Under the pieces are notes generated by a model that worked only from the letters and a program-made list of their open reading frames with translations, did no database searches and was not told where the DNA came from. This document shows positions 458 through 37,304 of a DNA stretch of 37,366 bases, one piece after another. A program made the position numbers and the translations under genes. This DNA comes from an uncultured Paraprevotella sp. (GTDB taxonomy: Bacteria; Bacteroidota; Bacteroidia; Bacteroidales; Bacteroidaceae), in assembly GCA_944321975.1 (NCBI GenBank), contig CALUNJ010000015.1, positions 1-37,366 of the forward strand, in the 5' to 3' direction. Numbering within the stretch: the stretch's first letter is position 1; each line of letters begins with the position of its first letter.

Positions 458-531
458 CTCAAGAGAAAAAAATTATTCTCGCTTGAGAAAAGAATGTGAA
501 TCGCTTGAGAAAAAATTCCGGCACTCTTGAG
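458..531 (-). repeat. Dispersed 22-base-period element, copy A (three units plus end motif)
   Basis: Read on the minus strand, the element has motif starts at 531 (CTCAAGAGT), 509 (CTCAAGCGA), 487 (CTCAAGCGA) and 465 (CTCTTGAGG), each exactly 22 bases apart. The spacers are T-rich; the one between 509 and 487 reads TTCACATTCTTTT, as in copy B. Total length is 74 bases, the same as copy B at 14080-14153; a two-unit copy C lies at 37105-37156. In this copy both ends carry the CTCAAGAG/CTCTTGAG octamer, so the outer ends form an inverted repeat. It lies downstream of the hisB terminator. I do not recognise the family. Confidence 0.85.
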
Positions 532-10901: not shown

Positions 10902-13403
10902 TCAGAAACGGCAACGCAATTCTTTCCCGTCGTAGCGGACTGACTTTTCCCGCGGCGTTTTTCCACCATATCGGTGCAAAACGACACGGAACGTACGCGA
11001 CGACTCCATCCCGTCAAAACTTCCCTCGCGTGCGCCCAAGGTCAGCGTCTGCCTCCGGTCGTCCCATTCCAGGCGGATGGTCGTGTATTCCCCCCGTTCA
11101 TAGTCGTAGCTGTCCCCTTCATCTTCATAAAGCACGAACGACGCGTCGCGTCCCGGATAGACTTCAAGGCGAAGTTCCTTGCCCGGCAACTCGCCCGAAT
11201 GTTGCACGACAGGCCCCATCGGCACGATGGATCCCTGGCGCACGAACAGCGGCAAGCGGTCGATGGGAGCGGCGGCCTCTATCGTCTGCCCGCCGGCATA
11301 GGTGTCCCCCGTCCAATAGTCCACCCACTCCGCCCCGCGGGGAAGGTACACGGCGCGGGTCTTCGCCACGTCCTGGAGCTTCACCGAACCTTTGTCGTAG
11401 TACATCGGGCGGGTGACGGGGCAGACCAGGAAGGCCGGCCCCCACATGAATTCGTCCTTCACGTCATGAACCGCCGCATCGCCCGGAAAGTCGAACGCCA
11501 GCAGACGTGCCATCGTGTAGTCCTCCAGGCAAACGCGCCCGGCCAGCGAATAATTGTAAGGCAACATCTCGTAGCGCAGGCGGATCATCTTCAGGATACT
11601 TTCATAGAACGGCTCGCCGGGACGGCCGAAACGCCAGATTTCGCGCGGTGTCTGGGTGCCATGGCTGCGGCACAGGGGCAAGAACGTGCCGTACTGGAAC
11701 ATCCGCGTGTAATATTCCCGATAGCCCAGGTCGTCCACTCCCCGGTCAAACTCCCCGGCGCGGAACCATTCGCGCCCCTTGCACACGAAAAACGAGCCGA
11801 TGTCGACCGTCCAATAGGGGCATCCCGTCGCCATGAAGTTCAGCCCTTGCGGAATCTGCTGGGCAAACGACTTCCACGAAGCGTGGGTGTCGCCATTCCA
11901 CGTGATGGTGCCATAACGCTGCTGCCCCGCATAGCTCGAACGGGTCAGGTTGACCACGCGCTTGCGGTCGGTCGCAGCCCGTTGGTGCTCATAAAGCCCC
12001 TTGGAATGATACAGGGAGAACAAGCTGGCGCGTTCCGCGCCCAACACGTCGCCCAACAATTTCGCGTTGCCTCTCCAGCGCGCCTCGTGGCTGTCCCAGC
12101 CATAGCCTTCCGGCATGTTCCACCAATCGGCGTCCAGCGGTTCCGTGCAGTCACACCACCAGGCATCAAACCCATTGCTGAAGAACTCATCGTCGGCATA
12201 CTTCCAATAAAGCGCCCGCGCCAAGGGGTTGAAAGCGTCATACACCGAGCGGTCGAGCATGAAGCCCCGGCGGGCAAAATCCTGCGTCTGCGGGCTGTTG
12301 GTCGGATTGGGCCAGATGGAAATCATCAGCCGGGCATCCAGCGCATGCACGGAATCGGCCAGCGCACGCGGATCGGGATAGAACCTGCGGTCCATCTTCA
12401 GATAGCCCCACTGCCCTCCCGGCCAATAGTTCCAATCCTGCACGATGACGTCGAGCGGCACCTGCCGCTGGCGGTATTCCTTCACCACGTCCACGATTTC
12501 CTGTGAGTTCGTATAGCGTTCTTTTGACTGGATGTAGCCCAACATGTAGCGGGGCAACATGGGGCAACCGCCCGTCAGGAAGCGGTAGCGTTCCACCACC
12601 TTGTCCATCGAACAGCCTTTCATGAAGTAATAATCCACCTCTTTCGCGGCCTCCATCTCCACAAAGCTCCCGCCCGCATCATCGGCATACACCATGGCGC
12701 AACCGGCATCGAACAACAGCCCGTAGCCCGCCGTGGAATTGAGCACCGGCACCATCTCCTTCAGGTTATGCTGGCAAAGGTACATCCGTTTCCCCCGCAA
12801 GTCCAGGAAATCTTCCATGTGGCATCCCAGGCCGTAAAGGGCTTCGCCCGCCTGCCAGCGGAAGTGGTTGCGATATTTCCATGTGCGTCCCACCGTGTCG
12901 CGGCGCAACACGTCCATCACCTCCTTTTCCCCGTCGGCTGTCTTTTCAATGCGCTTGCTGCCGGGGTCGTAAGTCACCTTTTCCTGATAGACTCGTTCCC
13001 CCTCGCGCGGGCAGTCCGCGTTTTCCGCCAGAAGCGTCTTCCCCGTGCGCCCGTCCCGGAAATCCACGGCAAACGACCGCAAGTCCACCCGCACGTCCAG
13101 GCTGTCCGAAGAAAGGGTCAGGCCGCCTTCTGCCGCCTCGGCCCGGAAATGCACCTTCTCGTCCCTCCGGCCTACGCACACGATCGTTCCATTACCCAGG
13201 AAATCCGTCTCTTGCGTATAACGCACCCGCACGATGTCGGGAGCCACGAACTCCACCCGGAGAAGCCCATTCCCCGTCCGGAAGTGTGCGCCGTTGCGCA
13301 ACAAGGCATACGCGCCCGGCGTGGCCGACGCGCCGGCCACGCCCGCCAAAGCCATGACGCCGCACAACGCCACGAATTTAGGCCACATCTTGAAATTCAT
13401 CAT
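10902..13403 (-). CDS. Secreted glycoside hydrolase family 31 (alpha-glucosidase/alpha-xylosidase type)
   Basis: Predicted retaining exo-alpha-glycosidase, 833 aa. A signal peptide spans about residues 1-27, ending near AGASA, so it is exported to the periplasm or beyond. An N-terminal beta-sandwich is followed by a (beta/alpha)8 barrel containing VQDWNYWPGG (about 318-327), MISIWP, the nucleophile motif WWCDCTEP (Asp418) and the acid/base motif WNGDTHASW (Asp505). The C-terminal beta domains, with the DUF5110-like segment around YEDEGDSYDYERG, complete the GH31 layout. The sequence does not settle alpha-glucosidase against alpha-xylosidase activity. No SusC/SusD pair or other CAZyme is adjacent, so this is not an obvious utilisation locus. 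It has its own consensus promoter. The start could also be Met2 or Met6. Confidence 0.9.
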   Translation of the reverse strand: MMNFKMWPKFVALCGVMALAGVAGASATPGAYALLRNGAHFRTGNGLLRVEFVAPDIVRVRYTQETDFLGNGTIVCVGRRDEKVHFRAEAAEGGLTLSSDSLDVRVDLRSFAVDFRDGRTGKTLLAENADCPREGERVYQEKVTYDPGSKRIEKTADGEKEVMDVLRRDTVGRTWKYRNHFRWQAGEALYGLGCHMEDFLDLRGKRMYLCQHNLKEMVPVLNSTAGYGLLFDAGCAMVYADDAGGSFVEMEAAKEVDYYFMKGCSMDKVVERYRFLTGGCPMLPRYMLGYIQSKERYTNSQEIVDVVKEYRQRQVPLDVIVQDWNYWPGGQWGYLKMDRRFYPDPRALADSVHALDARLMISIWPNPTNSPQTQDFARRGFMLDRSVYDAFNPLARALYWKYADDEFFSNGFDAWWCDCTEPLDADWWNMPEGYGWDSHEARWRGNAKLLGDVLGAERASLFSLYHSKGLYEHQRAATDRKRVVNLTRSSYAGQQRYGTITWNGDTHASWKSFAQQIPQGLNFMATGCPYWTVDIGSFFVCKGREWFRAGEFDRGVDDLGYREYYTRMFQYGTFLPLCRSHGTQTPREIWRFGRPGEPFYESILKMIRLRYEMLPYNYSLAGRVCLEDYTMARLLAFDFPGDAAVHDVKDEFMWGPAFLVCPVTRPMYYDKGSVKLQDVAKTRAVYLPRGAEWVDYWTGDTYAGGQTIEAAAPIDRLPLFVRQGSIVPMGPVVQHSGELPGKELRLEVYPGRDASFVLYEDEGDSYDYERGEYTTIRLEWDDRRQTLTLGAREGSFDGMESSRTFRVVLHRYGGKTPREKSVRYDGKELRCRF

Positions 13404-13755
13404 ATTTTATCAGGTTTTTCATTAAGTCTTTTAAGTTAGAATGAAAGCAAAGATAGGTATTTTTCCAACCAAAAGCAAAAAAATCCGCTGCCAAATACTT
13501 CCATCCCCCAGCCGCCTGCCCGCCCCCTTCGCCCGCTCCCGCGGCCGACCCGCCTTCCGGCAAAAGGCTCCCCAATGACATCGAAGGCCGAAGCACCGCC
13601 TGAACCCAGCGCACTCCCGTCTGCCGCAAAATCCGGGGAAACGTCCAGGCAAAAACCAGCGTGCAGCAAACCGCCGCCACCGCCGGCAATGCCATCCTGA
13701 ACACCAAAGGCAACATGCGGTCCGTGCCCAACCGCTCCTCATAAAGGTTTTCCAT
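13378..13755 (-). pseudogene. Internally deleted MATE efflux transporter remnant
   Basis: The frame starts MENLYEERLGTDRM, then PLVFRMALPAVAA. This matches the beginning of Bacteroidales MATE drug/Na+ antiporters, which usually continue for about 440 residues. Here residue 28 is followed directly by AAVCCTLVFAWTFPRILRQ-type sequence (AVCCTLVFAWTFPRIL), which resembles the last transmembrane helix of the same family. About 400 codons of the middle therefore seem to be missing, with the junction in a GCG/GTG-rich stretch near 13670. Beyond about residue 45 the frame runs on into low-complexity Gly/Ala sequence and overlaps the GH31 start. A -7 box and a plausible start remain. The product would have only one or two helices and could not work as a transporter. 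The MATE assignment rests on recognising both ends by eye. Confidence 0.6.
13448..13479 (-). promoter_or_regulatory. Promoter of the GH31 gene
   Basis: On the minus strand TTTG (rc of 13476-13479) is followed after 20 bases by TATCTTTG (rc of 13448-13455), a full match to the Bacteroidetes consensus. The 5' untranslated region would be about 40 bases. It lies inside the tail of the MATE remnant frame, so the glycosidase does not depend on the remnant's promoter. Confidence 0.8.
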
Positions 13756-13779
13756 TTCCGTCTTGTCCGTTTCGTCGTG

Positions 13780-13787
13780 CAAAGGTA
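13780..13787 (-). promoter_or_regulatory. Relict promoter -7 box upstream of the MATE remnant
   Basis: TACCTTTG on the minus strand, 24 bases before the remnant's ATG, matches TAnnTTTG. No -33 TTTG stands at the usual distance. Its survival suggests the deletion left the 5' end of the gene intact. Confidence 0.45.
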
Positions 13788-14079
13788 CGATTCTTATGCA
13801 AGACCGTCCTCCGCCCTTCCTCGCTTTTTCACCCCCAAAGCCTCTCCCCCTCCGGGAAGACCCGGAGAACCCAACCGGCGGATGCCGCCCGCCCGCCTGA
13901 GACCTTCCCCACGATGCCTGCAACTTGTCAATCTTTTTTTGCTTTCATTCCTCCACAGCCGCCACCGCCTCCAGCCCATGCGCTGCCGACAGACGAAGGA
14001 AACGCCCGCCCCGCCAAGAAAACGCACAAACCACTAAGAACCAAAGAGATAAAAAGCGGTTTGAAACGCTTCGATTTTT
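13788..14079. other. Intergenic stretch with no gene found
   Basis: Together with the repeat element at 14080-14153 and the 128 bases after it, this forms a gap of about 500 bases between the MATE remnant and the WecA-type gene. The short open frames here are low-complexity and Pro/Ser-rich in translation, with no domain or ribosome-binding site. I see no RNA gene, and no convincing terminator for the WecA-type gene. Confidence 0.55.
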
Positions 14080-14153
14080 CTCAAGCGATTCACATTCTTT
14101 TCTCAAGCGATCCATCCATTTTTCCCAAGCGAAAAAATCCCATCTCTCTTGAG
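14080..14153 (+). repeat. Dispersed 22-base-period element, copy B (three units plus end motif)
   Basis: Motif starts fall at 14080 (CTCAAGCGA), 14102 (CTCAAGCGA), 14124 (CCCAAGCGA) and 14146 (CTCTTGAG), each 22 bases apart; the total is 74 bases. The segment from 14080 to 14110 (31 bases) is identical to copy A read on the minus strand from 509 to 479. It lies downstream of the WecA-type gene but in opposite orientation to it. Confidence 0.85.
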
Positions 14154-14281
14154 CCTCCGACAGGAGTGAAAAGGAACGACAGGGGAACCGGCCTCCAGCC
14201 GCCCCGAAGCGTCGTCGGAAAAGTAAAAAATATCTTCCTGAAAGAGGCTTCGCGGGAAACCCTTCATCCGGACGCCCCGCT

Positions 14282-15382
14282 TCACGCACGCAGTCGTTTG
14301 CGCCGGCCGGCTTTCCACATCGCCCAATGGAACAGGCAGAAGAAAAACACGTCCAGCACCACAATCCAGGTGGCCGACAGCCCGGCCAGCACCGCCGCAT
14401 AGTTCAGCACACAGAAGAAGAAGAAAAGGCCAAGAATGACACACAACGCCCCGTGCATGGAAAAACCGGCCGCCATCACGACATGGTGGATGTGGCTCTT
14501 GTCGGCCCCGAATATCGGCTTATGACGATACAACCGCAACAAAGCCACCCGGATCACGTCGAACGTGGGGACAATCAGCAACGTGTAGGACACCAGGAGC
14601 GCATGCCCCCTGTAAGGCAACACTGCCGGATTGTCCATCGTGTACTTAATGGACAAATAGGCCAAGGCATATCCCAGGAACAGGCTGCCGGAATCGCCCA
14701 TGAACGTCTTGGTGCCCTTTTCCGCCTTGCCCCACATGTTGAAACCAAAGAAAGCCACCAGACTACCCAGCAACCCGGCCGCGCCGACCGCGTAAATGAA
14801 AGTGTTTTCCATCTGCAGATACAAATAGATGTAGGCCGAAAGGATGCAGACGCACAGCCCCGAAGCCAGCCCGTCGATGCCGTCAATCAGGTTGATGGAA
14901 TTCACCACCAGCAGAATCACAAACACGGAAAAAGGATAGCTGAACCACAGGGGCAGTTCGTACAGGCCGAACAACCCGTAGAAATTATTGATGTGCAACC
15001 AGCAGAAAGGCAGCAACAGCGCGGCCACCAGCTGAATCAGGAACTTGTGGTTGGCCTTCATCCCGAACAAGTCGTCAATGGCACCAATGATATAGACCAG
15101 GAAAGCCCCCACAGCCATCACCACCGACGTCGCCTTCATCGTGAACAAGCCATGCCCTTCCAGCGCACACGCAGAAAAGGCCACGGCAAGCCCGACCAAC
15201 ATGGCCGGCATGAAAAGGATGCCGCCCAGGCGAGGCACCGCCTCGTGGTGCACCTTGCGCCCCCCCGGCAAATCGAAAAGCCCTTTCAACTTGCAATATT
15301 TCAACAGAAACGGCATGGCCAAAATGGTAAAGACCAATCCGGCCAGGCTTGACAACATCACATAAAAAAACTCCCCTTCCAT
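14282..15382 (-). CDS. WecA/MraY-family undecaprenyl-phosphate sugar-1-phosphate transferase
   Basis: Polytopic membrane enzyme (366 aa, about 11 hydrophobic segments) that transfers a sugar-1-phosphate, in this family commonly GlcNAc-1-P, from a UDP-sugar to undecaprenyl phosphate and so starts a lipid-linked glycan. Signature motifs are GGRKVHHEAVPRLGG (40-54), the Asp pair in AIDDLFG (103-104), NLIDGIDGLASG (164-175), FMGDSGS (227-233) and the cytoplasmic His motif DKSHIHH (294-300). The ATG at 15382 is chosen because it begins the first membrane helix; the upstream open frame is hydrophilic and unlike the family. It lies 139 bases after the last glycosyltransferase gene, so it may have its own promoter. 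It is the second initiating transferase at this locus. Confidence 0.9.
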   Translation of the reverse strand: MEGEFFYVMLSSLAGLVFTILAMPFLLKYCKLKGLFDLPGGRKVHHEAVPRLGGILFMPAMLVGLAVAFSACALEGHGLFTMKATSVVMAVGAFLVYIIGAIDDLFGMKANHKFLIQLVAALLLPFCWLHINNFYGLFGLYELPLWFSYPFSVFVILLVVNSINLIDGIDGLASGLCVCILSAYIYLYLQMENTFIYAVGAAGLLGSLVAFFGFNMWGKAEKGTKTFMGDSGSLFLGYALAYLSIKYTMDNPAVLPYRGHALLVSYTLLIVPTFDVIRVALLRLYRHKPIFGADKSHIHHVVMAAGFSMHGALCVILGLFFFFCVLNYAAVLAGLSATWIVVLDVFFFCLFHWAMWKAGRRKRLRA

Positions 15383-15521
15383 TTTTTCCGTTTTCAATAT
15401 GGTATTTTCAAAACGCAGACAAAAGTTTTTTATTGCCAAAAAAGAAAAGAAAATGAAATCCCGGCACCCGTCAGGGCTACCCCGAAGCCGCCATTCCCCC
15501 CCCGCCGAAAGGCAGTCTGCC

Positions 15522-16577
15522 TCAATGACGCACCCGGCCAGGGGCTTTCTGCGGCGGGCAAAGAACCGCACAGAGTTGCCTGCAATAGTGAAGATAGTCA
15601 TGTTCCATCGCCCAGGCATGGCAACGCGCCGACATTCGCACGTAGGCTCCTTTGTCCGAAACCATCCGGCGGGCCGCCCGCTCGAAATCCGCCTTGTCGC
15701 CGGCCTTGTAAGTGTAGCCCAGCCCCAAGGCTTCCACGTCCACGCCCATGTGGGTGTTGTCTGACAGGATCACGGGAGTGCCCAGTGCCATTGCGTCGAT
15801 GAAAGAAGTCAGCCCTGCCAGCCGCCCATCGGTATTGCCTGGCAAAATGGGTATGACACTAACCGTGGCCCGTTCCATAAGCGACAACATGGAAGGATAG
15901 TCCAGCGCATTAGCGCCGGATGTGCCGGAAGCAACGACCTCGGCCTTTCCGGCATGCACAGCCACCTTGTCGGTGACGACCATGAGAGGAACCTCCATCC
16001 CGGCACAGGCTTCGGCCACCAAAGCGACATCACGCGCCGTCTTGCCATTCGTAAAAAACAGCTCCGGCCGGTCCGGGTCATGGGACATCGCCTCGAAATG
16101 AGAGGCATAGAAAGGCATGTCGCCTCCCCAGGGAAGGAACTCGAACCTGCCGCGCAAAGCCGGGAGAGCCTGTGCGGCCCGAGCCATGATCTGTTCCGAA
16201 AGGAAAAAAATCTTATCGTAGCCCGATGAAAGCAAAGCCGGACGTTCGAAATGATGGACTAACGTGTAGAGCCTGACGCGGCGCAGGCCACCCCATTTGC
16301 GCCACAACGCCAGCAACGGAATCATGGGATTGGCAAAAGCGACCACGGCATCCACTCCGCGCACCTTGCGCATCAGTTTCAAATTGAAGGCAATGGCATA
16401 CAGGCACTTCCGGAACAATCCGGAACCTCTTGGCGGTTTGAACAACAAGGTTTCCACTTCATGTCCTTCGCGCTGCAAATAGTCCGTTCCCCAGCAATGG
16501 TGCCTGGGATAAACTCCCCGGGAAGCGTCGGCCAAAGCCTCATCAAGAGAATAATTGTTGATCGCCAGTATCTTCAT
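15522..16577 (-). CDS. Glycosyltransferase (GT4-like), last gene of the polysaccharide operon
   Basis: A 351-aa GT-B-type glycosyltransferase, presumably adding one sugar to the lipid-linked repeat unit on the cytoplasmic face of the inner membrane. The N-terminus MKILAINNYSLDEA is typical of the family. The C-terminal donor-binding half contains SFIDAMALGTPVILSD around residue 260, the place of the conserved acidic motif in GT4 enzymes. GGGGAGATGGACGG before the ATG gives a good ribosome-binding site. It lies 17 bases after the preceding glycosyltransferase gene. Donor and acceptor cannot be read from the sequence. Eighteen T-rich bases follow some way after the stop, with only a weak hairpin (AGGCAGTCTGCCT), so a terminator is not certain. 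Confidence 0.82.
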   Translation of the reverse strand: MKILAINNYSLDEALADASRGVYPRHHCWGTDYLQREGHEVETLLFKPPRGSGLFRKCLYAIAFNLKLMRKVRGVDAVVAFANPMIPLLALWRKWGGLRRVRLYTLVHHFERPALLSSGYDKIFFLSEQIMARAAQALPALRGRFEFLPWGGDMPFYASHFEAMSHDPDRPELFFTNGKTARDVALVAEACAGMEVPLMVVTDKVAVHAGKAEVVASGTSGANALDYPSMLSLMERATVSVIPILPGNTDGRLAGLTSFIDAMALGTPVILSDNTHMGVDVEALGLGYTYKAGDKADFERAARRMVSDKGAYVRMSARCHAWAMEHDYLHYCRQLCAVLCPPQKAPGRVRH

Positions 16578-16594
16578 CCGTCCATCTCCCCATG

Positions 16595-17764
16595 CTATAG
16601 GACTTCATACCCGCGTAACTTCTCCTCCCAGGAATAGTGGCTGCGTACCATTTCCCGTCCCCGGACAGACAGCATGCCACGAAAGGACTCATCGCCCATG
16701 ACCCGCACACAAGCCCCGGCAAAGGATTCCGCATCATCGTGAATCAGGCAATTCTCACCATGGCACAATTCAGGAATGGCCTGGGAAATCATGGAAGTCA
16801 TCACCACGGGCAGTCCGGCGGCCATCGCCACCAACACCTTGTTCTGGATGCCGGCCGCCACACGCACAGGAGCCACGGCAAGGCAGGCGTCTGAAATCAC
16901 GGCGCCCAAGTCATCCACAAACCCCGTCACCACGATGTGCTCCCGCTCCGCCAGTTCCAAAATGCGGCGGGGAGGCTCCGCTCCCACGACGTAGAACACC
17001 GCATCGGGAATCCGCTTCAGGATCAAAGGGAAAATGTCGTCCGCAAAATGGAGTACGGCATCTTGGTTCTGCAGCGTGCGCATGTTGCCGATGAAACACA
17101 GTTTAGAAGCCTTATAACCGGAAGACACCGGCACCGCACAGTCCACCCCGTTGGTGTGCAAGGCCAAGGAGGAAAAATCCGCTCGGCAAGACGTTTTCAG
17201 GAAATCCATGTCCGACCGGGAAACCAGCACGACCTTGGGAAAAGTGTGGACCACGTGGTGCTCAAAGCGTCCGATGAGCCTCTGTTCCACTCCATACACC
17301 ATGCGCTTCAGCATGCCGCCCTTCGCACCGGCCGACATGGAATAGGTCTTGGACAGCGCATCGGTCATCTCCACCACAGAGGAGCCCTGCAACCGGAGCT
17401 GCTCCAAATAGGGCACCATGCGAAGCAAGTGGGCCACATACAAACCGGGACGCTCCGCACGGACCACCTCACGGAACTTGCGCCGGAAAAAAGGCGAATA
17501 ATAGTAACCGCATTGGATGGGCTTCCCCGCCAGCCAAAACAAAAGGGAAAAACACAGCGACACCAGCGCATGGCGCCTCACGACATAAACTTTGTCATAA
17601 AGTTCCTGCGCGGCCTTCTTGTCACATCCGCGGCTTTCGCAAAAAGAGACCAGCACCAGCTCGTGGCCGCGCGACTTCAAGTAACGCGCTATGTGGTTGA
17701 TCCGAAGCACATCCCCGCCATTCTCCGGGAAGGGGAAGCGCGGAGTCAGAATACAGATTCTCAT
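16595..17764 (-). CDS. Glycosyltransferase (GT4-like)
   Basis: A 389-aa GT-B glycosyltransferase starting MRICILTPRFPFPENGG, where the Gly pair is the usual acceptor-side loop of GT4 enzymes. The C-terminal domain has VVGAEPPRRILEL and the donor-site motif NKVLVAMAAGLPVV near residue 300. The ATG at 17764 is preferred to earlier in-frame ATGs because the family homology begins exactly there and the preceding gene ends 4 bases upstream. It is part of the unbroken series of polysaccharide genes. Sugar specificity is unknown. Confidence 0.85.
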   Translation of the reverse strand: MRICILTPRFPFPENGGDVLRINHIARYLKSRGHELVLVSFCESRGCDKKAAQELYDKVYVVRRHALVSLCFSLLFWLAGKPIQCGYYYSPFFRRKFREVVRAERPGLYVAHLLRMVPYLEQLRLQGSSVVEMTDALSKTYSMSAGAKGGMLKRMVYGVEQRLIGRFEHHVVHTFPKVVLVSRSDMDFLKTSCRADFSSLALHTNGVDCAVPVSSGYKASKLCFIGNMRTLQNQDAVLHFADDIFPLILKRIPDAVFYVVGAEPPRRILELAEREHIVVTGFVDDLGAVISDACLAVAPVRVAAGIQNKVLVAMAAGLPVVMTSMISQAIPELCHGENCLIHDDAESFAGACVRVMGDESFRGMLSVRGREMVRSHYSWEEKLRGYEVL

Positions 17765-17768
17765 AGGA

Positions 17769-18857
17769 CTATTCGTTAAAGATACTTCTAAAGATATTTT
17801 CCGTGGCCGAATCGGAATAGTTTTGCAAATACACGCTGCGGGCATAGGAATTGAAACGGCGCACCGGACAACGGGAATAACCCTCAAGACGGGCGATGAA
17901 ATCGGCTGCCGTGTTGCAACGCCCGCCGACTTTCTCCGCATCAAGCTCGTAGCCCTCGAACGTCTCGTCCGTGCCAAGGATGTTCTTCCCGTACATCAGC
18001 GCCTCGCAAGTCTTCACCTTCATCCCACTTCCGGAAAAAATGGGAAGTACCATGAAATCGGCTTCCTCGAAATAGGGACGAAGGTCGGGGGCATCGCTCA
18101 CGAATTCTATGTCCTTCAGGCATTCATGCGACGCCTTGAGCTTGGACATGCCCTTACCCACGACCTTGAAACGGACACGGACATGCGGAAGTACATTGCG
18201 CACGAACCACAAGACGCCTTCGTTATTAGGAGGGAAACAACTGCCAATGAACACACAAAGCGGACATTCGGAGGTCATCGCCTGGAGATCCGCACCGGTG
18301 AAAACGTCGGGCAGCGCGATGGGCAACACGGCATCGGCCCGCCGCCCGTATCGTTGTTGCAGCAACCCGTTGTCCCGCTCGTTCAACACCAGCACCTTGT
18401 CGGCATAGCGGCACGAGAAGCCATCATTGCGGGCCGCGCAACGAATGACGAACTGCCGCCCCGGCAACCACTTGGGCACGCTGGCTTCGTAGTAAATGCT
18501 CTCCACGTTGTGGAAATGGACAATCACCTTCCCCCCGTAACCCTTACGCTTCAAATCCCTTGCGATCAGCCCGAAAAGGCTCGTGCTCAGAAACACATAA
18601 TCATAGGCCGGAGCCATCTCCACCACCTTGCGCACAAATCCCGGCGTAAGGCCGTTATGATAATCCCAAAGCGTGTAGAAAGCCGAACGCGCCAACTTCC
18701 CATATCCCTCCCGGCCTCCGTCATGCACATACAACGAATCCACGGCCCCTTCGCCAAAGACCCGCCGCAACATGTCGAAACAACGGCGGTTGCCCTGTCC
18801 GCCACCGTCAAGGATGCCGTCGTAACGCTTAAACCAAACTGCCAATACTTTTTTCAT
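17769..18857 (-). CDS. Glycosyltransferase (GT4-like)
   Basis: A 362-aa GT-B glycosyltransferase. The N-terminal domain has GGGQGNRRCFDML (18-30), and the C-terminal domain has GSGMKVKTCEALMYGK, the donor-binding motif with its conserved Glu, near residue 285. FIGSCFPPNNEGVLWFV marks the start of the second Rossmann domain. It sits 3 bases after the WbsX-type gene and 4 bases before the next glycosyltransferase, so it is translated from the same message. It is likely to add one residue of the repeat unit; the sugar is unknown. Confidence 0.85.
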   Translation of the reverse strand: MKKVLAVWFKRYDGILDGGGQGNRRCFDMLRRVFGEGAVDSLYVHDGGREGYGKLARSAFYTLWDYHNGLTPGFVRKVVEMAPAYDYVFLSTSLFGLIARDLKRKGYGGKVIVHFHNVESIYYEASVPKWLPGRQFVIRCAARNDGFSCRYADKVLVLNERDNGLLQQRYGRRADAVLPIALPDVFTGADLQAMTSECPLCVFIGSCFPPNNEGVLWFVRNVLPHVRVRFKVVGKGMSKLKASHECLKDIEFVSDAPDLRPYFEEADFMVLPIFSGSGMKVKTCEALMYGKNILGTDETFEGYELDAEKVGGRCNTAADFIARLEGYSRCPVRRFNSYARSVYLQNYSDSATENIFRSIFNE

Positions 18858-18860
18858 AGG

Positions 18861-20024
18861 CTATTCCGTGATGGCTTCCCGCAAAGCATCGATGAAGCCG
18901 TGACCATATTTCTCATCGGGTTCCATGTAATTGCCTTCCCCCCACTCATTCCAAGCCCGCAGGAACAGGATCCGATGTTGCGGAGCCTTGTCCCGGAGCA
19001 GTTCCAAGGCCTGCTCCACATGTGCCTTGAAATTCTTCGGGGTGGCATTGACGAACACCCCGTCATAATTACCCGAACGCGGACTGCGGTCCCACTGAGG
19101 CATGATCGTGGGATAGACATTCTCCCACACATCTTCGGGCGAAAAGAAATTTTTCATGACCTTGGGATAATCCATCCTGACCGCCGGAAGCTGGGGCAAG
19201 TATTTCCGCAAGGTCAACTGAACCAGCCGGCGGTATTTCCCCTTGTACAGCATTTCGGCACGGGGCTTTCCAAAAGGATTAAGCCCGTCGAATCCCAAAT
19301 CCAAGATGTCGCGATAGACCCTCTCGCTGCTGGCAAGGTCGGGCAGCACGCGCTCTATCGTCCCGTCCTTCCCCCGCTGCACCGTGGTGGTGGAATTGGC
19401 TATTGCCACGAAATAAACGCCTTCAAGCCCGTTTTTCACAGCCAAATCCCTCCACAACTCGATGAAGTGGGACACATCGCCAAAATTATAAGTATCAAAA
19501 ATCAGGAACAAAGGCTTGCCGTCGACCGTAATATACCTGTGATCCCGGAACGCAGGAAGCACATAATTGAAATGATGGATGTAATCCTCGTCACCAGGGT
19601 AAAGCTGTTTCTCGATCATCACGCTCGAATCCACCTTCCCTTTGCCGCGCTGCCAGGATTTGGTGCTCCAGTCATGATTGGCCCAAGCCAGGCAAAAGGG
19701 AAAATCCGGTTTTCCGGAAGCCAAGACTTCATTGAACGGCCGTTGAAGCAACTGCCGTCCGTTTCCAAACCAATAATGCCAATAACAGAAACCTTCAATG
19801 CCCGCTTCGCGCGCCAATTGCGCCTGTTGTTCCCTGACCTCGGGAAGACGCAAATCATAGAACCCCAGGTCAGCCGGGATGCGTGGCTGATAATGCCCGC
19901 GGAAAAGAGGTTTCGCCTTCGCCACGTTCGTCCATTCCGTAAACCCCGGCCCCCAAAACTTATCATTCTCGGGAACAGGGTGGAACTGAGGCAAATAATA
20001 TGCCAGTACTCTCGCTTTCATCAT
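18861..20024 (-). CDS. WbsX-type glycosyltransferase
   Basis: A 387-aa member of the WbsX family found in O-antigen, capsule and rhamnan clusters. The opening YYLPQFHPVPENDKFWGPG and FTEWTNV are hallmarks, followed by GFCYWHYWFGNGR, CLAWANHDW and, near the C-terminus, FLRAWNEWGEGNYMEPD. The Trp/Asn/Glu-rich segments are conserved in the family, which is thought to transfer sugars during polysaccharide assembly. There is no signal peptide, as expected for a cytoplasmic enzyme. Two Met codons open the frame, and either could be used. It lies 6 bases after the acyltransferase gene. Confidence 0.9.
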   Translation of the reverse strand: MMKARVLAYYLPQFHPVPENDKFWGPGFTEWTNVAKAKPLFRGHYQPRIPADLGFYDLRLPEVREQQAQLAREAGIEGFCYWHYWFGNGRQLLQRPFNEVLASGKPDFPFCLAWANHDWSTKSWQRGKGKVDSSVMIEKQLYPGDEDYIHHFNYVLPAFRDHRYITVDGKPLFLIFDTYNFGDVSHFIELWRDLAVKNGLEGVYFVAIANSTTTVQRGKDGTIERVLPDLASSERVYRDILDLGFDGLNPFGKPRAEMLYKGKYRRLVQLTLRKYLPQLPAVRMDYPKVMKNFFSPEDVWENVYPTIMPQWDRSPRSGNYDGVFVNATPKNFKAHVEQALELLRDKAPQHRILFLRAWNEWGEGNYMEPDEKYGHGFIDALREAITE

Positions 20025-20030
20025 TCTCCA

Positions 20031-20666
20031 CTAATTCAAATGTTTCACAATACGGGCTGGCGAACCGGCAACGACCACATAATCCGGCACTACCCCCGTC
20101 ACCACGCTGTTGGCTCCCACAATCACGCCGTTGCCAATCACGGTTCCCGGAAGGATGCAGACATTATTGCCCAACCACACGTTGTCGCCGATTGCCACTT
20201 CGCCTTTGGAATACAAAGGCCGGGACTCAGGATGCACATCAAGCCACCTGCGTTCCGAAGCGCCGTGCGCATTATCCGTGATCAGGACATTGGTCCCGGT
20301 GAGCAGATTATTGCCAATCGTTATGCCTCTCACTGAAGTGACATGCGCCCCCGCGCCAAGGTGGCAATGGTCACCAATCACAATGCGAGGGGCGTATTCA
20401 TGCCCGCCATGATGCTCCCATGCCGTCAGGCGCACATCCTGATCGATTTCCGTGGCATTTCCTACATGAACGCAACGAAGCCCGACCAGATCTTTAGCCT
20501 TATACATGATGACACTTCCCTTCCCCCAACCGGCAAAACGACGCCGCAGGTAGCCGGTATAGCAATAGGAAAGAGTGGCCCGGAGCAATATGGAAAATCC
20601 TGAAGGCCAAAGAAACGACCACAAATAGCCGATCCATCCCGCAATATGTTTAATCCATGTTTTCAT
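20031..20666 (-). CDS. Hexapeptide-repeat acyltransferase (WbbJ-like)
   Basis: A 211-aa protein with a left-handed beta-helix built of hexapeptide repeats, for example VIGDHCHLGAGAHV, IGNNLLTGTNVLI, IGDNVWLGNNVCI and IGNGVIVGANSVV. The catalytic His is probably in ITDNAHG, and the protein ends with the usual VVAGSPARIV segment. Such enzymes O- or N-acetylate sugars of the polysaccharide. The N-terminal 35 residues are hydrophobic (WIGYLWSFLWP) and may attach it to the membrane. Its start lies 17 bases inside the end of the upstream glycosyltransferase gene in another frame, suggesting tight translational coupling. Confidence 0.9.
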   Translation of the reverse strand: MKTWIKHIAGWIGYLWSFLWPSGFSILLRATLSYCYTGYLRRRFAGWGKGSVIMYKAKDLVGLRCVHVGNATEIDQDVRLTAWEHHGGHEYAPRIVIGDHCHLGAGAHVTSVRGITIGNNLLTGTNVLITDNAHGASERRWLDVHPESRPLYSKGEVAIGDNVWLGNNVCILPGTVIGNGVIVGANSVVTGVVPDYVVVAGSPARIVKHLN

Positions 20667-21837
20667 TCAAAATATCCCTATAAAATTGATAAACCCCATC
20701 CACATAAGCATCCGTCGAATACAACGTGCGAACCGTCCGGCAGGCCCGTTCCACGATGTCTTTCCGTTCATGCTCCGACAAAGATTCCGCCCGCCCCAAG
20801 GCCTCGGCCAATTCCGCCACCGTAGTAAACCGGAAGCCGATCTCAGCTCCTGTCAACCGCAGGCCGTTGTCGAACTGCTCCTTCGTCCCGCCCGTGTCAC
20901 GGCCAATCACCAAGCAACCATTGGACATGGCTTCCGGCATGCACCGCCCGAAAGCCTCGAAACGAGAAGGTATGACAATGGCAAGAGCCTTGCGCATAAG
21001 CACGTCCACATCCCTTCTCGGCCCTAAGAAACGCACATGCCCGCCTAATCCGCGTGACCTGGCATATTCGTTCAAACAACGGCTATAGGAGTCATCGCCG
21101 GCATCTCCGGCCACCCACAAAGGTGTTCCCGACGCAGACTTCTCCACATAAGCCGCATAGGCCTCCAACAAAAGATCCAACCCCTTGGCCGGCTCGATAC
21201 GCCCCGCATAAAGGAAAAACTTCCTGTCTTCAAAGCTATCGCCTGCCCCCGGCACAGTCCCCGTTTCAATACCATTATAAATCACCCTTGCCGCGGAATA
21301 CCCCTGCAACAGATGATGGCGAAGAATGCCTTCCGTTATGCATATGACATAAGACAACGGCACACGTAAGCGTTTATGGAAGAGCTTCCATGAAGGGAAA
21401 TAAAACTCATGGAAATCCAAATCCCCATATTCCCTTATATGATAGACATGCGGCACGCGAAGCCTGCGCGCCAGCCTGAATCCAATATCCACCACGCTCA
21501 CATTCGTATGCACCAGATGGACATGCCCACGCACGGACAACAGGGCAAACAATCGGCTCACCGCCCTGCGATTCAGCCATCTTCTGGCCCACAGGCGAGG
21601 CAAAAACAGCAACTTGTCCTTGACGGTGGCAAATCGAGGATAGGTATTAGGGCGGTATAGCGCCACAATGACTTCCACCCCCATTCGAAGCAAATCGGCA
21701 TAAATCCCCTCCTTGTCGGGCACCACCACCAACGGACAGACTCCTTTTCGCTTCAATCCGGAAATCAGCGACAGGAAAGATTTGGAAGCTCCTCCCAATG
21801 AGTAGGTCGAATTCAATATGTAGACCACATTTGTCAT
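20650..21837 (-). CDS. Glycosyltransferase (GT4 family)
   Basis: A 395-aa GT4 enzyme. The N-terminal domain has YILNSTYSLGGASKSF, the glycine loop, and VVPDKEG. The C-terminal domain starts at YNGIETG and YAGRIEPAKGLDLLLEAY (about residue 209 onward) and contains PSRFEAFGRCMPEAMSNG near residue 290, the E-x7-E motif that binds the nucleotide sugar. The ATG at 21837 overlaps the stop of the polymerase gene as ATGA, which favours it over an ATG nine codons earlier. Of the five glycosyltransferases here it shows the clearest GT4 motifs. Confidence 0.9.
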   Translation of the reverse strand: MTNVVYILNSTYSLGGASKSFLSLISGLKRKGVCPLVVVPDKEGIYADLLRMGVEVIVALYRPNTYPRFATVKDKLLFLPRLWARRWLNRRAVSRLFALLSVRGHVHLVHTNVSVVDIGFRLARRLRVPHVYHIREYGDLDFHEFYFPSWKLFHKRLRVPLSYVICITEGILRHHLLQGYSAARVIYNGIETGTVPGAGDSFEDRKFFLYAGRIEPAKGLDLLLEAYAAYVEKSASGTPLWVAGDAGDDSYSRCLNEYARSRGLGGHVRFLGPRRDVDVLMRKALAIVIPSRFEAFGRCMPEAMSNGCLVIGRDTGGTKEQFDNGLRLTGAEIGFRFTTVAELAEALGRAESLSEHERKDIVERACRTVRTLYSTDAYVDGVYQFYRDILNENMD

Positions 21838-23054
21838 CCTTCCTCCTTTCGCAGCCCCACGCAAGCAAAGGGCATGTTGACCAAAGCATACAAGGGAACA
21901 TAATTACTATACCACAAAGGATAACCTCGCACCCAAAAGCACAATATCGCAATGACAAACACTGACACAAACACACGCTTGCTTTCCGCATGCATCATTG
22001 AAAGTATATAAAAGGCAATCACCAAGAACAAACCGACAAAGCCGTTTTCGTAGATGAAGACACGATAACCGGAATTTCCCGTAATCTCCGTGTCATAATC
22101 CCGGCCAAAAAAGATGTCTGACGACTGCAAATAGCTCTCATATTCACTCTCAAACCAGCCGGCCACGCGATTGTCTCCACTCAATTCTCCTTCATCGCTC
22201 ACCTCCAGCCGGATGAGGATTAAGTCATGCAGCAAGTTATCCCCTTTGTTATAAAAGAATGCGCCTGTGATCACACTGGCAATCAAGGCCACCGTCACCA
22301 ACACCTTTCCGACGACATGCTTCCCCTTTATCCATAAATTCAGAAAGACAATGACCACAAGAAGCACATAAGCCGCCAAAGAAAAAGTCATCAAAGTAGC
22401 GACCAATAACACTACGTTATACCATTTTTTCCAATGACCACATTGGGCAAACAGCAGCAACACCGTAGCCGTCCCCAAATGGCCTGGTTCCAAAAAGACG
22501 GAATGGAAGCGCGGAAATATGCTCATCAAAGAACGGTCGTCGGACAAGAAGAAGAAGTAATTGGAATATGTGTACAACCCATCTCCGAACTGCGTGTTCC
22601 AGGAAGGCAAGGGAAATCCCAACAAATGTAAGACAAAAGCCGCTATGGAAACCGACAACAAGCAGGCCATGGCCTTGGAAAGGAAGGTCGTCAGCCGATA
22701 CAGGCTCTCTCTGTTAATAATAAACAACGACCAAAAGACCATGACATGAAACAAATTGCCCAAAAAAGCGTTCGCGTTTCCGCCATTGACCAACAGCAAA
22801 TAGCACGAAAGAACCACATAGGCCACCAAGGGCGGCAAATAGTCCGCATAAGTAAAAAGCGGGCGCGAAAGCGTGTTGGAAATAAACAAAGACAAAAAAA
22901 CCAGGAAACCGGCTGGAATAATATACAATGCCCCTACTGGCCAAAAAAACCAAGGATTGAGCGACCCCCAATAAGCTATCAGCATCCCGGCCTCGAAACA
23001 GGCATACGCCAAAGCCTCTTTTCTGACAGAGAACAGATTCGACACTCTCAGCAT
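21834..23054 (-). CDS. Wzy-like polysaccharide polymerase
   Basis: A 406-aa polytopic membrane protein with about ten or eleven hydrophobic helices. A large extracytoplasmic loop occupies roughly residues 270-330 and is rich in acidic and polar residues (VSDEGELSGDNRVAGWFESE). Its size, topology and position between the flippase and glycosyltransferase genes fit the O-antigen/capsule polymerase Wzy, which joins repeat units on the outer face of the inner membrane. The segment FHSVFLEPGHLG near residue 190 resembles conserved motifs in polymerases of this kind. Wzy proteins are poorly conserved, so context carries much of the call. The start overlaps the flippase stop by 7 bases (ATGCTGA). Confidence 0.8.
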   Translation of the reverse strand: MLRVSNLFSVRKEALAYACFEAGMLIAYWGSLNPWFFWPVGALYIIPAGFLVFLSLFISNTLSRPLFTYADYLPPLVAYVVLSCYLLLVNGGNANAFLGNLFHVMVFWSLFIINRESLYRLTTFLSKAMACLLSVSIAAFVLHLLGFPLPSWNTQFGDGLYTYSNYFFFLSDDRSLMSIFPRFHSVFLEPGHLGTATVLLLFAQCGHWKKWYNVVLLVATLMTFSLAAYVLLVVIVFLNLWIKGKHVVGKVLVTVALIASVITGAFFYNKGDNLLHDLILIRLEVSDEGELSGDNRVAGWFESEYESYLQSSDIFFGRDYDTEITGNSGYRVFIYENGFVGLFLVIAFYILSMMHAESKRVFVSVFVIAILCFWVRGYPLWYSNYVPLYALVNMPFACVGLRKEEG

Positions 23055-24568
23055 GCCAGACTCCTCCTTTTTTTAACGAGCGACTTCACATAGTTTCTTT
23101 CTTTTCTGTCGAACGTAAAGCACCACACGGCTATTCCTCCTGCCAATATGGGCAACAGAATGGCCAAAAACACGCTGCATTGGGCTACACCATAATATCC
23201 ACAAAGCAAACTCACACCACACAACACCGCACACGAAGGCAACAACGGAAGAAAGACCTGAGTGACATAAGACCAAACGCACAACCCGGCCGTGTGTTTC
23301 AAAAAAGGCAAACGAACAAACGACATCAATAACTCAACCCCCACATAAAGCCACATCGCCTCGTGCACTCCAAAACCATTCCTCAGCAATAACCACACCA
23401 TCGGCACCACCAATAATTTCGGAGTGTAAATCAAAAACGTGTAATTCCGTATCTTGCCTAAAGCCTGGTTCGCCGTGTGCAAGCCATAAGTCAACTGATC
23501 CAAAAGGAACCCCACCAATATGGCACGGCAAAACAAGACCGTGCCTTCAGGCGTTTCTTTCAGCCACCATCCCAACACAGCCGGCATTTCCACCGTCAAC
23601 GGTATGGCCACCAATGCCATCAGCATGCTTGAATACTTGCTTTCACGTGCTGCCAGGAACAAGACCTTCGCACGATCGTGTTCCCCCTCTGCCTTCATTA
23701 TCTGGGGATTCATCGCATTCAAAACGGAAGTTGCCACAAATGAAACAGCACCATAAACTTGAAAAGCAATCCCATAGGCAGCATTGATTACCGTGCCGAA
23801 GAAATGATTGAAAATCATCGCTATCCCTTGATTCCGCGTGGCAATCGCCCCCATCCCGTAAGTGGTCCATCCGGCAAATCCCATCAAACGCATCAGACAA
23901 TCTTTGTCAATATCCCTTTTTCGGATCAAAACATGGCATTCTTCGAACCGTATCACTGCATAAATCGCGAAAGCGAAAAAATTAACCAATAAAATCAATG
24001 CCATGCCATAAGCATAAACCAACAGTTTGTCCGCCGACACGAACATCAGCCACACAGCAAGAGCCAACTTCAGCACACCGTCTGACATTTCGACAATTGA
24101 AACATAAACTATATTTTCCCTGGCAATAAAAAGAGCCTTGAAAGGAGCCGTCAAAATCGTAATGAACAGCATCAAAACGGATAAGGCATACACATGGGAC
24201 GCCGCCAGCAATCGCGATTCCTCAATATTCAGCACTTTCCCCACCAACCAGTCGCCTGGGATAAGAAGCGCAACACCTAAACCTATCCCAATCAACAAAT
24301 GAAGCAACAAGCTATTGGAAAACAAACGGCTGACATAACCAATATTCGCATGATAATAAGAGACATAACGCTGGGTAGTAATCACCAACGCATTTGTCAC
24401 AAAGCCCAACATGGCCACAACGCCGCCAACCACAGAATAAACGCCATAATCCGAAACACTTAATGCATCCAAAATCAGGCGCGTGGAATACAATGAAAGA
24501 CAGATGTTGAAAAATGCCTTCACATATTGCACCACAGTATTGACGACGATCCGCTTTACTGGTTCCAT
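23048..24568 (-). CDS. Wzx-like lipid-linked oligosaccharide flippase
   Basis: A membrane protein of 506 aa with about 12-14 hydrophobic helices and the MOP-superfamily opening VKRIVVNTVVQYVKAFFNICLS, read here as VNTVVQYVKAFFN then STRLILDALSVSDYGVYSVV. This opening is typical of polysaccharide flippases that move undecaprenyl-linked repeat units across the inner membrane. The ATG at 24568 is chosen because GAGAGGAG lies just before it and it leaves a 13-base gap after the wzz gene. An upstream ATG at 24601 would add a hydrophilic, Arg-rich segment overlapping wzz. Confidence 0.87.
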   Translation of the reverse strand: MEPVKRIVVNTVVQYVKAFFNICLSLYSTRLILDALSVSDYGVYSVVGGVVAMLGFVTNALVITTQRYVSYYHANIGYVSRLFSNSLLLHLLIGIGLGVALLIPGDWLVGKVLNIEESRLLAASHVYALSVLMLFITILTAPFKALFIARENIVYVSIVEMSDGVLKLALAVWLMFVSADKLLVYAYGMALILLVNFFAFAIYAVIRFEECHVLIRKRDIDKDCLMRLMGFAGWTTYGMGAIATRNQGIAMIFNHFFGTVINAAYGIAFQVYGAVSFVATSVLNAMNPQIMKAEGEHDRAKVLFLAARESKYSSMLMALVAIPLTVEMPAVLGWWLKETPEGTVLFCRAILVGFLLDQLTYGLHTANQALGKIRNYTFLIYTPKLLVVPMVWLLLRNGFGVHEAMWLYVGVELLMSFVRLPFLKHTAGLCVWSYVTQVFLPLLPSCAVLCGVSLLCGYYGVAQCSVFLAILLPILAGGIAVWCFTFDRKERNYVKSLVKKRRSLAC

Positions 24569-24581
24569 GCCCCGGCTCCTC

Positions 24582-25643
24582 TCATTTCTCCGTTCGTCCA
24601 AGAAAATCGTCCTTCAAAATATAAACGGCCACACCCACACTTCCTAACAATAGCATGCCTAACACAAATAACATACGTTTCGGGCCCGCCGGCTTGATTG
24701 GCACCGTCGCACACTGCAAGGTGGTAAACGCTGGCGTACGTTCCTGCACCTTGGCTTTGGCTGCTTGAAATTGGGTGTTCAATGCACTATAAGTATTATA
24801 TTTCAATTGCATCTCATTCTCCAAATCCGTCTGTTTCAATTCTGCGGCCTTGCGCACCACATTCAAATTCGCATCGACAAGCCGCCCGTAGAGCCGCAGT
24901 GCCTCTTCGTAGTCGGCCTTGGCCTCTTCAGTCAGTTTTTCATAATATTCCATATCCACCCGCGCCTTATTCGTCCGATAGGCCGTGATGAACTTTTGCA
25001 GCCGCGCACTCACCGTGTCAGCCATGCACGCACAAATGAGCGGATCTTGGTCTTTCACAGTGACGGTGATCACATCCGTTTTCTTATCTACTGAACACTG
25101 GATTTTATCTCCCATCAACTCTATCACGTCTTTTTGTTCTTTTGTCAGACGGAAGGGGTTGACTTTTCCCTCACCTTTATATCCATCCTCTTTCGCAAAC
25201 AAGCTCAACAGTTTGGCAACCCAACTCATAGGAAGAGACCAAACGGACTTCTGCTGATGATAACGAATGTAATCATAATAATTCGTCGAAAGGTCTCCTT
25301 CCTCGTTCGTCACGCCCACATCGAACAGACTCACCATAAAATCCATAGATCCCATCAAATCCGGATAAAGCATGGGAGAAATCGCGTCCGTCGTCATCCC
25401 TTGACTCAGATTCACGCCAAAAGAAGAAGCCAGCGAACCCAACACCCCGCTTCCAGAAGGATTCTCCACCTCCGGAGCCAGCATCACACTACAAGTGTAA
25501 TACCGCGGAATCAAGACGATATACACACACGATACCACAAAAACGACAGGAAGCACTTTAAAAAAAAGTTTTTTCCTCAGCCATATTTTCTTTGCGACCT
25601 TACGCAGGTCTATCACGTCTTCTTTTCCACGTTCCGCCATCAC
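24582..25643 (-). CDS. Wzz/GumC-type chain-length regulator
   Basis: A 353-aa inner-membrane protein of the polysaccharide co-polymerase family. One transmembrane helix lies near residues 28-48 (FFKVLPVVFVVSCVYIVLI) and a second near 327-346 (MLFVLGMLLLGSVGVAVYI), preceded by the Pro-rich motif PIKPAGPKR that is usual before the second helix. The part between is periplasmic and largely helical, with a coiled-coil-like run from about 230 to 300. No kinase domain or C-terminal tyrosine cluster follows, so this is the non-kinase form. It should set polymer length together with the Wzy protein. Confidence 0.92.
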   Translation of the reverse strand: MMAERGKEDVIDLRKVAKKIWLRKKLFFKVLPVVFVVSCVYIVLIPRYYTCSVMLAPEVENPSGSGVLGSLASSFGVNLSQGMTTDAISPMLYPDLMGSMDFMVSLFDVGVTNEEGDLSTNYYDYIRYHQQKSVWSLPMSWVAKLLSLFAKEDGYKGEGKVNPFRLTKEQKDVIELMGDKIQCSVDKKTDVITVTVKDQDPLICACMADTVSARLQKFITAYRTNKARVDMEYYEKLTEEAKADYEEALRLYGRLVDANLNVVRKAAELKQTDLENEMQLKYNTYSALNTQFQAAKAKVQERTPAFTTLQCATVPIKPAGPKRMLFVLGMLLLGSVGVAVYILKDDFLGRTEK

Positions 25644-25681
25644 ACTTTCCTTTTTCCTTGCCTAAAAAGCATTAAACCTTA

Positions 25682-28210: not shown

Positions 28211-28215
28211 ATCTA

Positions 28216-29046: not shown

Positions 29047-29442
29047 GGGGTTGACATGGATTTGACAGCAGGATGGAATGGTATGTAAGCACGCAGAGGC
29101 TCGGCGGCTTCCTCTATAATCTCAGCAGCCAAAAATTTATCTGGCGAAAACAAGTACGCTCTCGCTGCGTAATCGAAGCACAGTAGATTACCTTTATTTC
29201 GGCACCAGGTGCTGAAACGAGACATCACTCGGAAGCTCTGGCTCCGAAGCATTCCGGCAAAGTGGTGCAGCTAAATCGGAGATAGCCGGACGCGGCCTTG
29301 CACGGACGGTGAAATTTTAAAGGATAAGGCGCAAGTCGGTGGCCCGGGTCTTGCTTGCGCACGAAAACCAAAGGCCGGGATAAGCGTGTAGAAAGCGTAT
29401 GGTTTCCCTGTTTGGACGAGGGTTCGATTCCCTCCAGCTCCA
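29047..29442 (+). ncRNA. ssrA: tmRNA (transfer-messenger RNA)
   Basis: Rescues stalled ribosomes with SmpB. The acceptor stem pairs GGGGTTG (29047-29053) with CAGCTCC (29435-29441), and the discriminator A is at 29442. The T arm GGGTTCGATTCCC precedes the 3' strand of the acceptor stem. CCA is not encoded (CGA follows), so it must be added after processing. The tag frame runs from 29128 to 29172 and encodes AKNLSGENKYALAA and then TAA; the ALAA end is the usual proteolysis signal. A strong terminator follows at 29451. The gene is divergent from the polysaccharide operon. Confidence 0.96.
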
Positions 29443-29450
29443 CGACACAC

Positions 29451-37080: not shown

Positions 37081-37104
37081 ACTACATGGCATAGCCATTT
37101 TTCC

Positions 37105-37156: not shown

Positions 37157-37304
37157 AAAAAATCCGGAAGTTCAAGCCGCAGGATTCCGGAAGCCCTGAA
37201 AGGCGTTTCCACCCCGGCCTCATCCGTGATTTTCCAAAACAAAAGAAAGAAGAACCCGCGCCTTGGAACCGGACTCCATCGCGGAATCCGGGGGCAGTAG
37301 AAAT

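Follow-up and report, generated by a model that had tools for sequence, protein, structure and literature searches.

Evenly spaced intergenic arrays with a 22-bp pitch in an uncultured Paraprevotella genome and in other species of the genus

Arrays in the analysed window

The window, that is the whole stretch of 37,366 nucleotides analysed here, contained three arrays of short boxes repeated every 22 bp. Copy A (458-531, minus strand) is composed of one CTCAAGAGT unit, two CTCAAGCGA units and a closing CTCTTGAG in a single 22-bp register; it was matched at 445-529 by R1, a 97-position sequence profile made from 24 copies of an alignment of 26 (L008 and L022 being omitted for register), with a further profile match at 455-541. 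Copy B (14080-14153, plus strand) has two CTCAAGCGA units, one CCCAAGCGA unit and the closing CTCTTGAG, with a profile match at 14027-14154, and its left part (14027-14079, plus strand) is what remains of the canonical element's left flank (AACCAAAGAGATAAA, with GGTTTGAA in the 22-bp register). Copy C (37105-37156, plus strand) consists of two CTCAAGCGA units and the closing CTCTTGAG, with a profile match at 37070-37215. A sequence at 37294-37319 on the minus strand, GCAGTAGAAATTTAGTGGGGATAGCC, looks by eye like what canonical copies have at their outer right. It stands in an irregular order with respect to copy C and may be a fragment strayed from the larger repeat described below.

The three copies sit at the positions given in the original prediction, and its 22-base period was found in all of them. 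It had also credited copies A and B with three units, but the first unit of A is CTCAAGAGT and the third of B is CCCAAGCGA, so each has just two exact units. The run identical between A and B, given earlier as 31 bases, is 36 bases long; copy C has 17 bases in common with A and 17 with B. The inverted motif CTCTTGAG, thought to close each copy, is present in the 22-bp register in all three but is no fixed end, because boxes of both orientations occur at several positions of the register.

All six exact occurrences of CTCAAGCGA in the window lie within copies A to C, 22 bp apart inside each copy. With at most one mismatch allowed, the single motif matched 12 times in the window against 9.6 expected, which is not significant (26 of 100 shuffles reach 12). 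By our own ORF caller, with uncurated genes, the three copies are intergenic, as predicted. Copy C starts 25 bp past the stop of a DUF3256 gene. Copies B and A are each followed by a minus-strand gene, whose stop end lies 129 bp beyond the end of B and 233 bp beyond that of A. About 1 kb separates the genes flanking copy B, which are neighbours here; on contig C54 of G017 their matches are about 8 kb apart (window positions 12500-15700 were compared). The window also contains a tmRNA gene at 29047-29445 (Rfam RF00023, 144.7 bits).

A larger repeat with a 22-bp register

The window copies are short members of a larger repeat family, and the motif first noticed is the short core of that repeat. 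A search with a 203-position profile gave 98 distinct copies in the examined DNA, including 40 drawn from the higher-scoring list. Sixty of the 98 were aligned over about 230 bp (alignment A3), and conservation could be traced by eye over about 345 bp in 53 copies with longer flanks. Long forms, with a repeat of at least 200 bp, made up 27 of the 43 copies in the 437-kb sample described below.

The boxes are 8-9 bp long, stand in either orientation every 22 bp, and are separated by T-rich spacers of 13-14 bases which are common to different loci. A CRISPR array, with identical repeats of 20 bp or more and unique spacers, was rejected on these two points, the length of the boxes and the recurrence of the spacers. 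The centre of the repeat has two forms in one register, a fold-back form (43 of the 60 aligned copies) and a non-fold-back, mostly direct form (17 of 60). Of the 43 fold-back copies, 11 have TGCTTGAG as the central box and another 11 have CTCAAGCA, which suggests that the orientation of this box does not matter. The CTCAAGCG box of this genome is symmetric only in part. The feature common to all copies is the 22-bp register and no hairpin.

This bears on the earlier suggestion of an RNA element, which would be a transcribed structure such as a two-way terminator between converging genes. Fold-back copies can form strong hairpins (z -7.3 for L005, 0.3 to -2.1 for the other five folded copies), and their boxes 2 and 4 show partial co-variation, as of CTCAGGCG with CGCCTGAG and of CTCAAGTG with CACTTGAG. 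Against this, RNAalifold gave no common pair across the 60 copies, the fold-back centre is missing in 17 of them, and pairing in the left stem equalled that of shuffled arms (362 vs 362.8). G-U pairs were not favoured over A-C (left stem 92 vs 77, centre 4 vs 8, boxes 2 and 4 5 vs 19), A-C being above G-U in the latter two, and no Rfam match was found at the elements. The results on the stem and on G-U point to a symmetry of DNA and not of RNA.

Number, placement and spacing in the genome

The genome to which the window belongs (G000; 2.65 Mb in 171 contigs, 86% complete) contained the exact double unit CTCAAGCGA-N13-CTCAAGCGA 29 times at 25 separate places, and a reversed-pattern control gave 0. 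The genome-wide search proposed with the original prediction thus found the pattern all over the genome and not in the window alone. The copies are too diverged and too numerous to come from one recent segmental duplication, and most of them retain the 22-base phase, a small number having short indels.

R1 gave at least 152 matches across the genome (150 of 984 candidates were scored, and fold-back copies were counted on both strands). In 437,313 bases, comprising the window and 20 stretches, we found 43 places, or one per 10.2 kb; one weak match (13.7 bits) was kept out of this number. Because of overlap, L003, L004, L017 and L028 were omitted from the analysis. Extrapolation from these 437 kb gives about 250-260 arrays in the genome, a density which may be biased upwards because the 20 stretches (17 contigs) were picked after R1 matches had been seen on them.

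By our uncurated ORF calls all 43 places are intergenic: tandem genes flank 17 of them, converging genes 16 and diverging genes 2, and the other 8 are at sequence ends. Convergent gaps are enriched, with 16 of the 35 places away from ends as compared with 24% expected by length (P 0.004). The 22 intervals ranged from 6.3 to 23.0 kb with a coefficient of variation (CV) of 0.35. Under random intergenic placement, the mean CV was 0.74 or 1.10 and the mean smallest interval 731 or 24 bp, depending on gap weighting, and none of 4000 simulations reached the observed smallest interval, CV or dispersion. In a stricter null model, with 65 non-divergent gaps of at least 250 bp as candidates, the smallest interval was again reached in 0 of 4000 simulations and the P value of the CV was 0.0025.

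The longest interval in the sample is the 23-kb one inside the window, and most of it is filled by a long minus-strand gene run (14282-28827). This run is array-free, has several low codon scores and encodes two glycosyl transferases; it is perhaps an acquired polysaccharide locus.

Arrays in other species of the genus

R1 gave weak matches in G012, G014 and G015 (7, 5 and 9, respectively), and these are arrays with the same 22-bp pitch whose spacers (AACGATTTTTCAAT) and boxes (CTCAGCCG, CTGCGCCA, CTCATGAG and their complements) are different. G011 and G004 each gave a single weak match that was not array-like. In 506 kb of one G012 contig we found 30 arrays, all 30 intergenic and 9 in convergent gaps (P 0.03); their CV was 0.465 against 0.94-1.2 (0 of 4000 simulations), with P values for the smallest interval from 0 to 0.005. 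In 200 kb of G014 there were 13 arrays, all 13 intergenic and 5 in convergent gaps (P 0.03), and evenness was weaker or non-significant (CV P 0.0075-0.087, smallest interval P 0.019-0.42).

A self-similarity scan blind to sequence, at lags 16-29, picked out lag 22 alone, with counts of 10 in G000, 9 in G012, 4 in G014, 10 in G002 and 5 in G007, and 0-2 at the other lags in these genomes. The boxes of G002 are TTGCGCAA, which is palindromic. On 200 kb of its contig C1 there were 21 peaks, 14 of them intergenic by our own ORF caller, with a CV of 0.453 against 0.89-1.09 (P 0.0005 or less); on 140 kb of contig C6 there were 10 peaks, 8 of them intergenic (CV P 0.016-0.117, smallest interval P 0.065-0.34). 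In 100 kb of G007 seven arrays with a TGCGGCAA box and a AGTACTCGAGTACT spacer were detected, all seven intergenic (CV P 0.11-0.38, smallest interval P 0.0095-0.10). At the same threshold other pitches (17-27) gave at most 7 peaks on G002 C1, 4 on C6 and 3 in G007, so that a few of the G002 and G007 peaks may be false.

The anatomy and the 22-bp pitch are certain for G000 and can be held with good confidence for G012, G014, G002 and G007. The even spacing is strong in G000, G012 and G002 C1 and weaker elsewhere. The extrapolated array numbers of these five species are similar (222-260) despite genome sizes of 2.6 to 4.2 Mb, as rough figures from samples of 100-506 kb.

In other sampled genomes the signal was sparse. 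Single lag-22 matches were found in G015 and in G001 (where lags 18, 21 and 24 gave at least as many), and one AT-rich match in G022; in G001 pitch 22 (2 peaks) did no better than pitch 21 (2). Lag 22 was absent in the sampled DNA of G008 and G016 (60 kb each) and of G003 and G026 (40 kb each). Outside G000 a looser three-box scan did not single out 22, and in most genomes it gave similar counts at other pitches (in G012, 18 at pitch 22 and 21 at pitch 15).

The genomes G017 and G009, both 99% complete, are near to G000 (75-83% identity over the main aligned pieces), and gave only 4 and 2 R1 matches (2 places and 1 place) and one lag-22 match each in 296 kb and 156 kb sampled. This near-absence means that the arrays are not essential within the genus, and shows that they can be lost, or never spread there. 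The sampled DNA of each of the two contained one 22-bp array of the GTTTCAAGGCCTGAAAC type (L171:2880-3000 in G009, L161:2179-2250 in G017). At one locus (L026 on G000 contig C96, L032 on G017 contig C28) the element and its flanks are near-identical by eye despite the 75-83% identity elsewhere, possibly through recent exchange.

Conservation of place

The position of arrays was compared between species through reciprocal best orthologs in the sampled DNA of G000, G002, G007, G012 and G014, an array behind a gene being scored against its presence behind the ortholog. The species pairs compared have arrays unrelated in sequence, and the pair G012-G014 was omitted. Three low-scoring G002 peaks (3445, 18148 and 125977) were also omitted here and kept in the evenness test; in G002, peak scores were known for all 10 peaks of C6 and for 12 of the 21 of C1.

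Some arrays were found to keep their place. All entries gave the two-by-two table 162, 9; 11, 12 (odds ratio 19.6, P 6e-8), and one entry per gap pair gave 151, 9; 9, 9 (odds ratio 16.8). The association was also seen with both gaps of at least 100 bp (30, 6; 6, 9; P 0.003) and in convergent gaps of at least 100 bp (5, 1; 1, 8; P 0.011), and tandem gaps gave no conservation of place (18, 4; 3, 1; P 0.6). The P values are guides, since the tables pool genome pairs that are not fully independent. Five separate places underlie the signal, one of them occupied in G000, G002 and G012 with three different boxes and one in G002, G007 and G012. An extra place is the G000 element at C14:15683, for which the matching G009 gap holds a 22-bp array of the GTTTCAAGGCCTGAAAC type. 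Conservation of place is thus a good, if numerically small, observation.

A possible lattice of docking sites

As the best explanation, which we put forward tentatively, the arrays would be evenly spaced rows of two-turn sites for a putative co-evolving DNA-binding protein that organises the chromosome. From the observed pitch, boxes, spacing and kept places we infer such a protein, its probable dimeric nature, its co-evolution with the sites and its chromosome-organising role. The repeated protein-binding site of the original prediction is thereby the reading that fits best, with a binding protein that is a putative one.

Each array would offer about three to five docking sites, probably to a symmetric dimer, and one site per 22 bp, or two turns of the helix, would put all sites on one face. 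An extrapolated 220-260 of these arrays per genome, between genes and about every 10-17 kb, with convergent gaps favoured, might be held or bridged by the protein, and the chromosome would be split into loops or supercoil domains of similar size. Positive supercoils gather where gene ends converge. Between species the recognition letters would shift along with the protein; the pitch would stay, and so would some of the places.

The orientation-indifferent central box and the palindromic TTGCGCAA boxes are compatible with a symmetric binder, and rows of sites for such a binder fit the two-turn pitch, the even spacing, the convergent preference and the kept places together. The larger conserved flanks in G000 are not accounted for in this way: binding boxes alone are insufficient as an explanation, and the flanks suggest that some spreading of units took place there. 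The wholesale change of letters would mean one of two things, a joint change of the protein and its sites or a copying process by which new units sweep over the old places. It is possible, though we find it rather doubtful, that the lattice is inherited in place with its letters replaced wholesale in each species, the pitch and some places being selected and the recognition sequence free. Such a system in a bacterium would recall the centromere repeats and recombination-hotspot motifs of animals and plants.

If the docking lattice holds, it bears on how bacterial chromosomes come by the size of their loops or supercoil domains. The genus would be a natural experiment: its sites, one every 10-17 kb, are mappable from sequence alone, vary in their letters between species and are nearly missing in two of these. 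The change of letters at kept places offers a route to the protein by co-variation, and raises the question how about 250 sites change together.

Alternative explanations

Mobility with target immunity is the strongest rival to the docking lattice, and we consider it unlikely. The arrays would then be non-autonomous mobile elements carrying rows of 22-bp transposase sites, with new families overwriting old ones, and transposition immunity between copies would account for the even spacing. Phage Mu and Tn7 have rows of 22-bp protein-binding sites at their ends, and target immunity could space copies; the arrays resemble these ends in having such rows. Unlike in Mu and Tn7, no ends or target duplications were found for the arrays. 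The smallest spacing, 6.3 kb, is close to the scale of cis-immunity in Mu, which is described as strongest at about 5 kb from the ends, with a decay over distances of 5 to 25 kb (PMC7350765).

The repeat of G000 is dispersed and 200 to about 345 bp long, the arrays are nearly absent from the close relatives G017 and G009, and one gap measures 380 bp in G000 and 12-17 bp in G017 and G009. The mobile short repeat of the original prediction is favoured by this gap, and disfavoured by the lack of target duplications in the 58 long copies; these were sought at 4-9 bp over a range of offsets, where exact ends are uncertain and degenerate ends could escape. Apparent duplications of 6-9 bp lie by eye inside the element, as a direct repeat around TTGTCCTATT. 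Nor were terminal inverted repeats seen by eye in the 58 copies. Among the best 40 of 280 matches of G012 and G014 array regions, all but one covered the array only (91 bp or less), and differing array families occupy the same orthologous gaps, both of which speak against mobility. Clean empty sites were not found in G017 and G009, two gaps being too diverged to locate insertion ends. Mu/Tn7-like ends would go with a DDE transposase and an AAA+ regulator. The Mu-type transposase domain PF09299 was matched in 0 of 18 genomes of the genus and also in 0 of 14 controls, which makes this search uninformative.

It is quite improbable that the arrays are self-recognition signals for DNA exchange or protection, in which species dialects mark a cell's own long fragments with one array per 10 kb. 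Divergence between species would be favoured under such a role, and the species-specific letters on a common design, the even spacing and the similar extrapolated numbers per genome (222-260) agree with it. DNA uptake sequences (DUS) of Neisseriaceae and Pasteurellaceae are likewise genome-wide, with dialects that are described as barriers between species, and form inverted pairs in intergenic DNA (PMC3630211). However, they are short single words reported to lie about 1 kb apart and to arise by point mutation and not by insertion (PMC7811141), whereas here phased arrays stand every 10-17 kb. A spread of single motifs at about one per kb was not seen in the window, where the six exact CTCAAGCGA motifs are confined to arrays, and array copies have longer flanks in common, unlike sequences of point-mutation origin.

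Transcribed RNA structures are very unlikely, for they do not predict even spacing and lack a common fold, although the enrichment of convergent gaps would suit a two-way terminator.

Comparison with known repeat systems

REP sequences are described as a palindrome of 20-40 bp ended by a GTAG or CGTC tag (PMC3733652), with more than 100 palindromic extragenic copies per genome and mosaic arrays of alternating orientation (PMC2817692), and BIMEs, about 600 in E. coli, have been discussed as supercoil barriers (PMC6907758). The arrays share with REP/BIME of enterobacteria and pseudomonads, as these sources present them, the many extragenic copies and the alternating orientation, and differ by the strict 22-bp pitch, the even spacing and the places kept despite the change of letters. 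By eye the GTAG/CGTC tag is absent from the CTCAAGCG, CTCAGCCG, TTGCGCAA and TGCGGCAA boxes, which have no constant tag. The Y1 transposase (RAYT, PF01797) gave 0 matches in G000 (86% complete), G012, G014 and G015 (82% complete), and was matched in one of 18 genomes of the genus (G009) and in 5 of 14 controls. Its lack in four array-bearing genomes argues against RAYT-driven REPs. The BIME as a supercoil barrier is nonetheless the nearest working model, though the REP/BIME features searched for were not found.

The BrickBuilt MITEs of Porphyromonas gingivalis also belong to Bacteroidales and are intergenic, with tandem short repeats in a larger repeat that has a leader and a tail; their repeats are of 23 nt, their sites are numbered up to 15 in that account, and they have terminal inverted repeats (PMC4596501). 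The arrays, in contrast, have a 22-bp pitch and an estimated number of 250, and no such ends were found. A 23-nt tandem repeat was rejected, because lag 23 gives 0-1 and lag 22 stands out.

Plasmid iterons are direct repeats at about two helical turns, bound by an initiator protein. The arrays differ from them in being chromosome-wide and intergenic, with boxes in both orientations.

Occurrence beyond the genus

A second profile (R2), made from 27 of 40 listed G012 and G014 arrays, was searched in 201 genomes of the family under stricter filters, with 20 candidates scored per genome. G014 alone appeared among the matches listed and nothing outside the genus, by a profile that is blind to arrays with other letters. 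One copy searched against plasmid records and one against phage records gave no match, and three matches in viral contigs were all one unrelated sequence. Neither such arrays in Paraprevotella nor evenly spaced 22-bp arrays in bacteria are described in the titles searched, a set with most subscription papers and all bioRxiv preprints outside its scope.

Among 26 stretches from named genomes, three were true relatives by their flanks (L045, L052 and L055, all Paraprevotella) and represent the same sites as L032, L030 and L031, respectively; most of the others look like chance. Lag-22 arrays were also present at three places of a Phocaeicola record (L048, L300 and L301) and in two Prevotella records (L050 and L053), with units such as ATTCACAATTGTGAAT and GAGTTAACTC. 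These are not independent evidence, because the records were selected by a pattern that demands the pitch; the 22-bp pitch may nevertheless extend past the genus.
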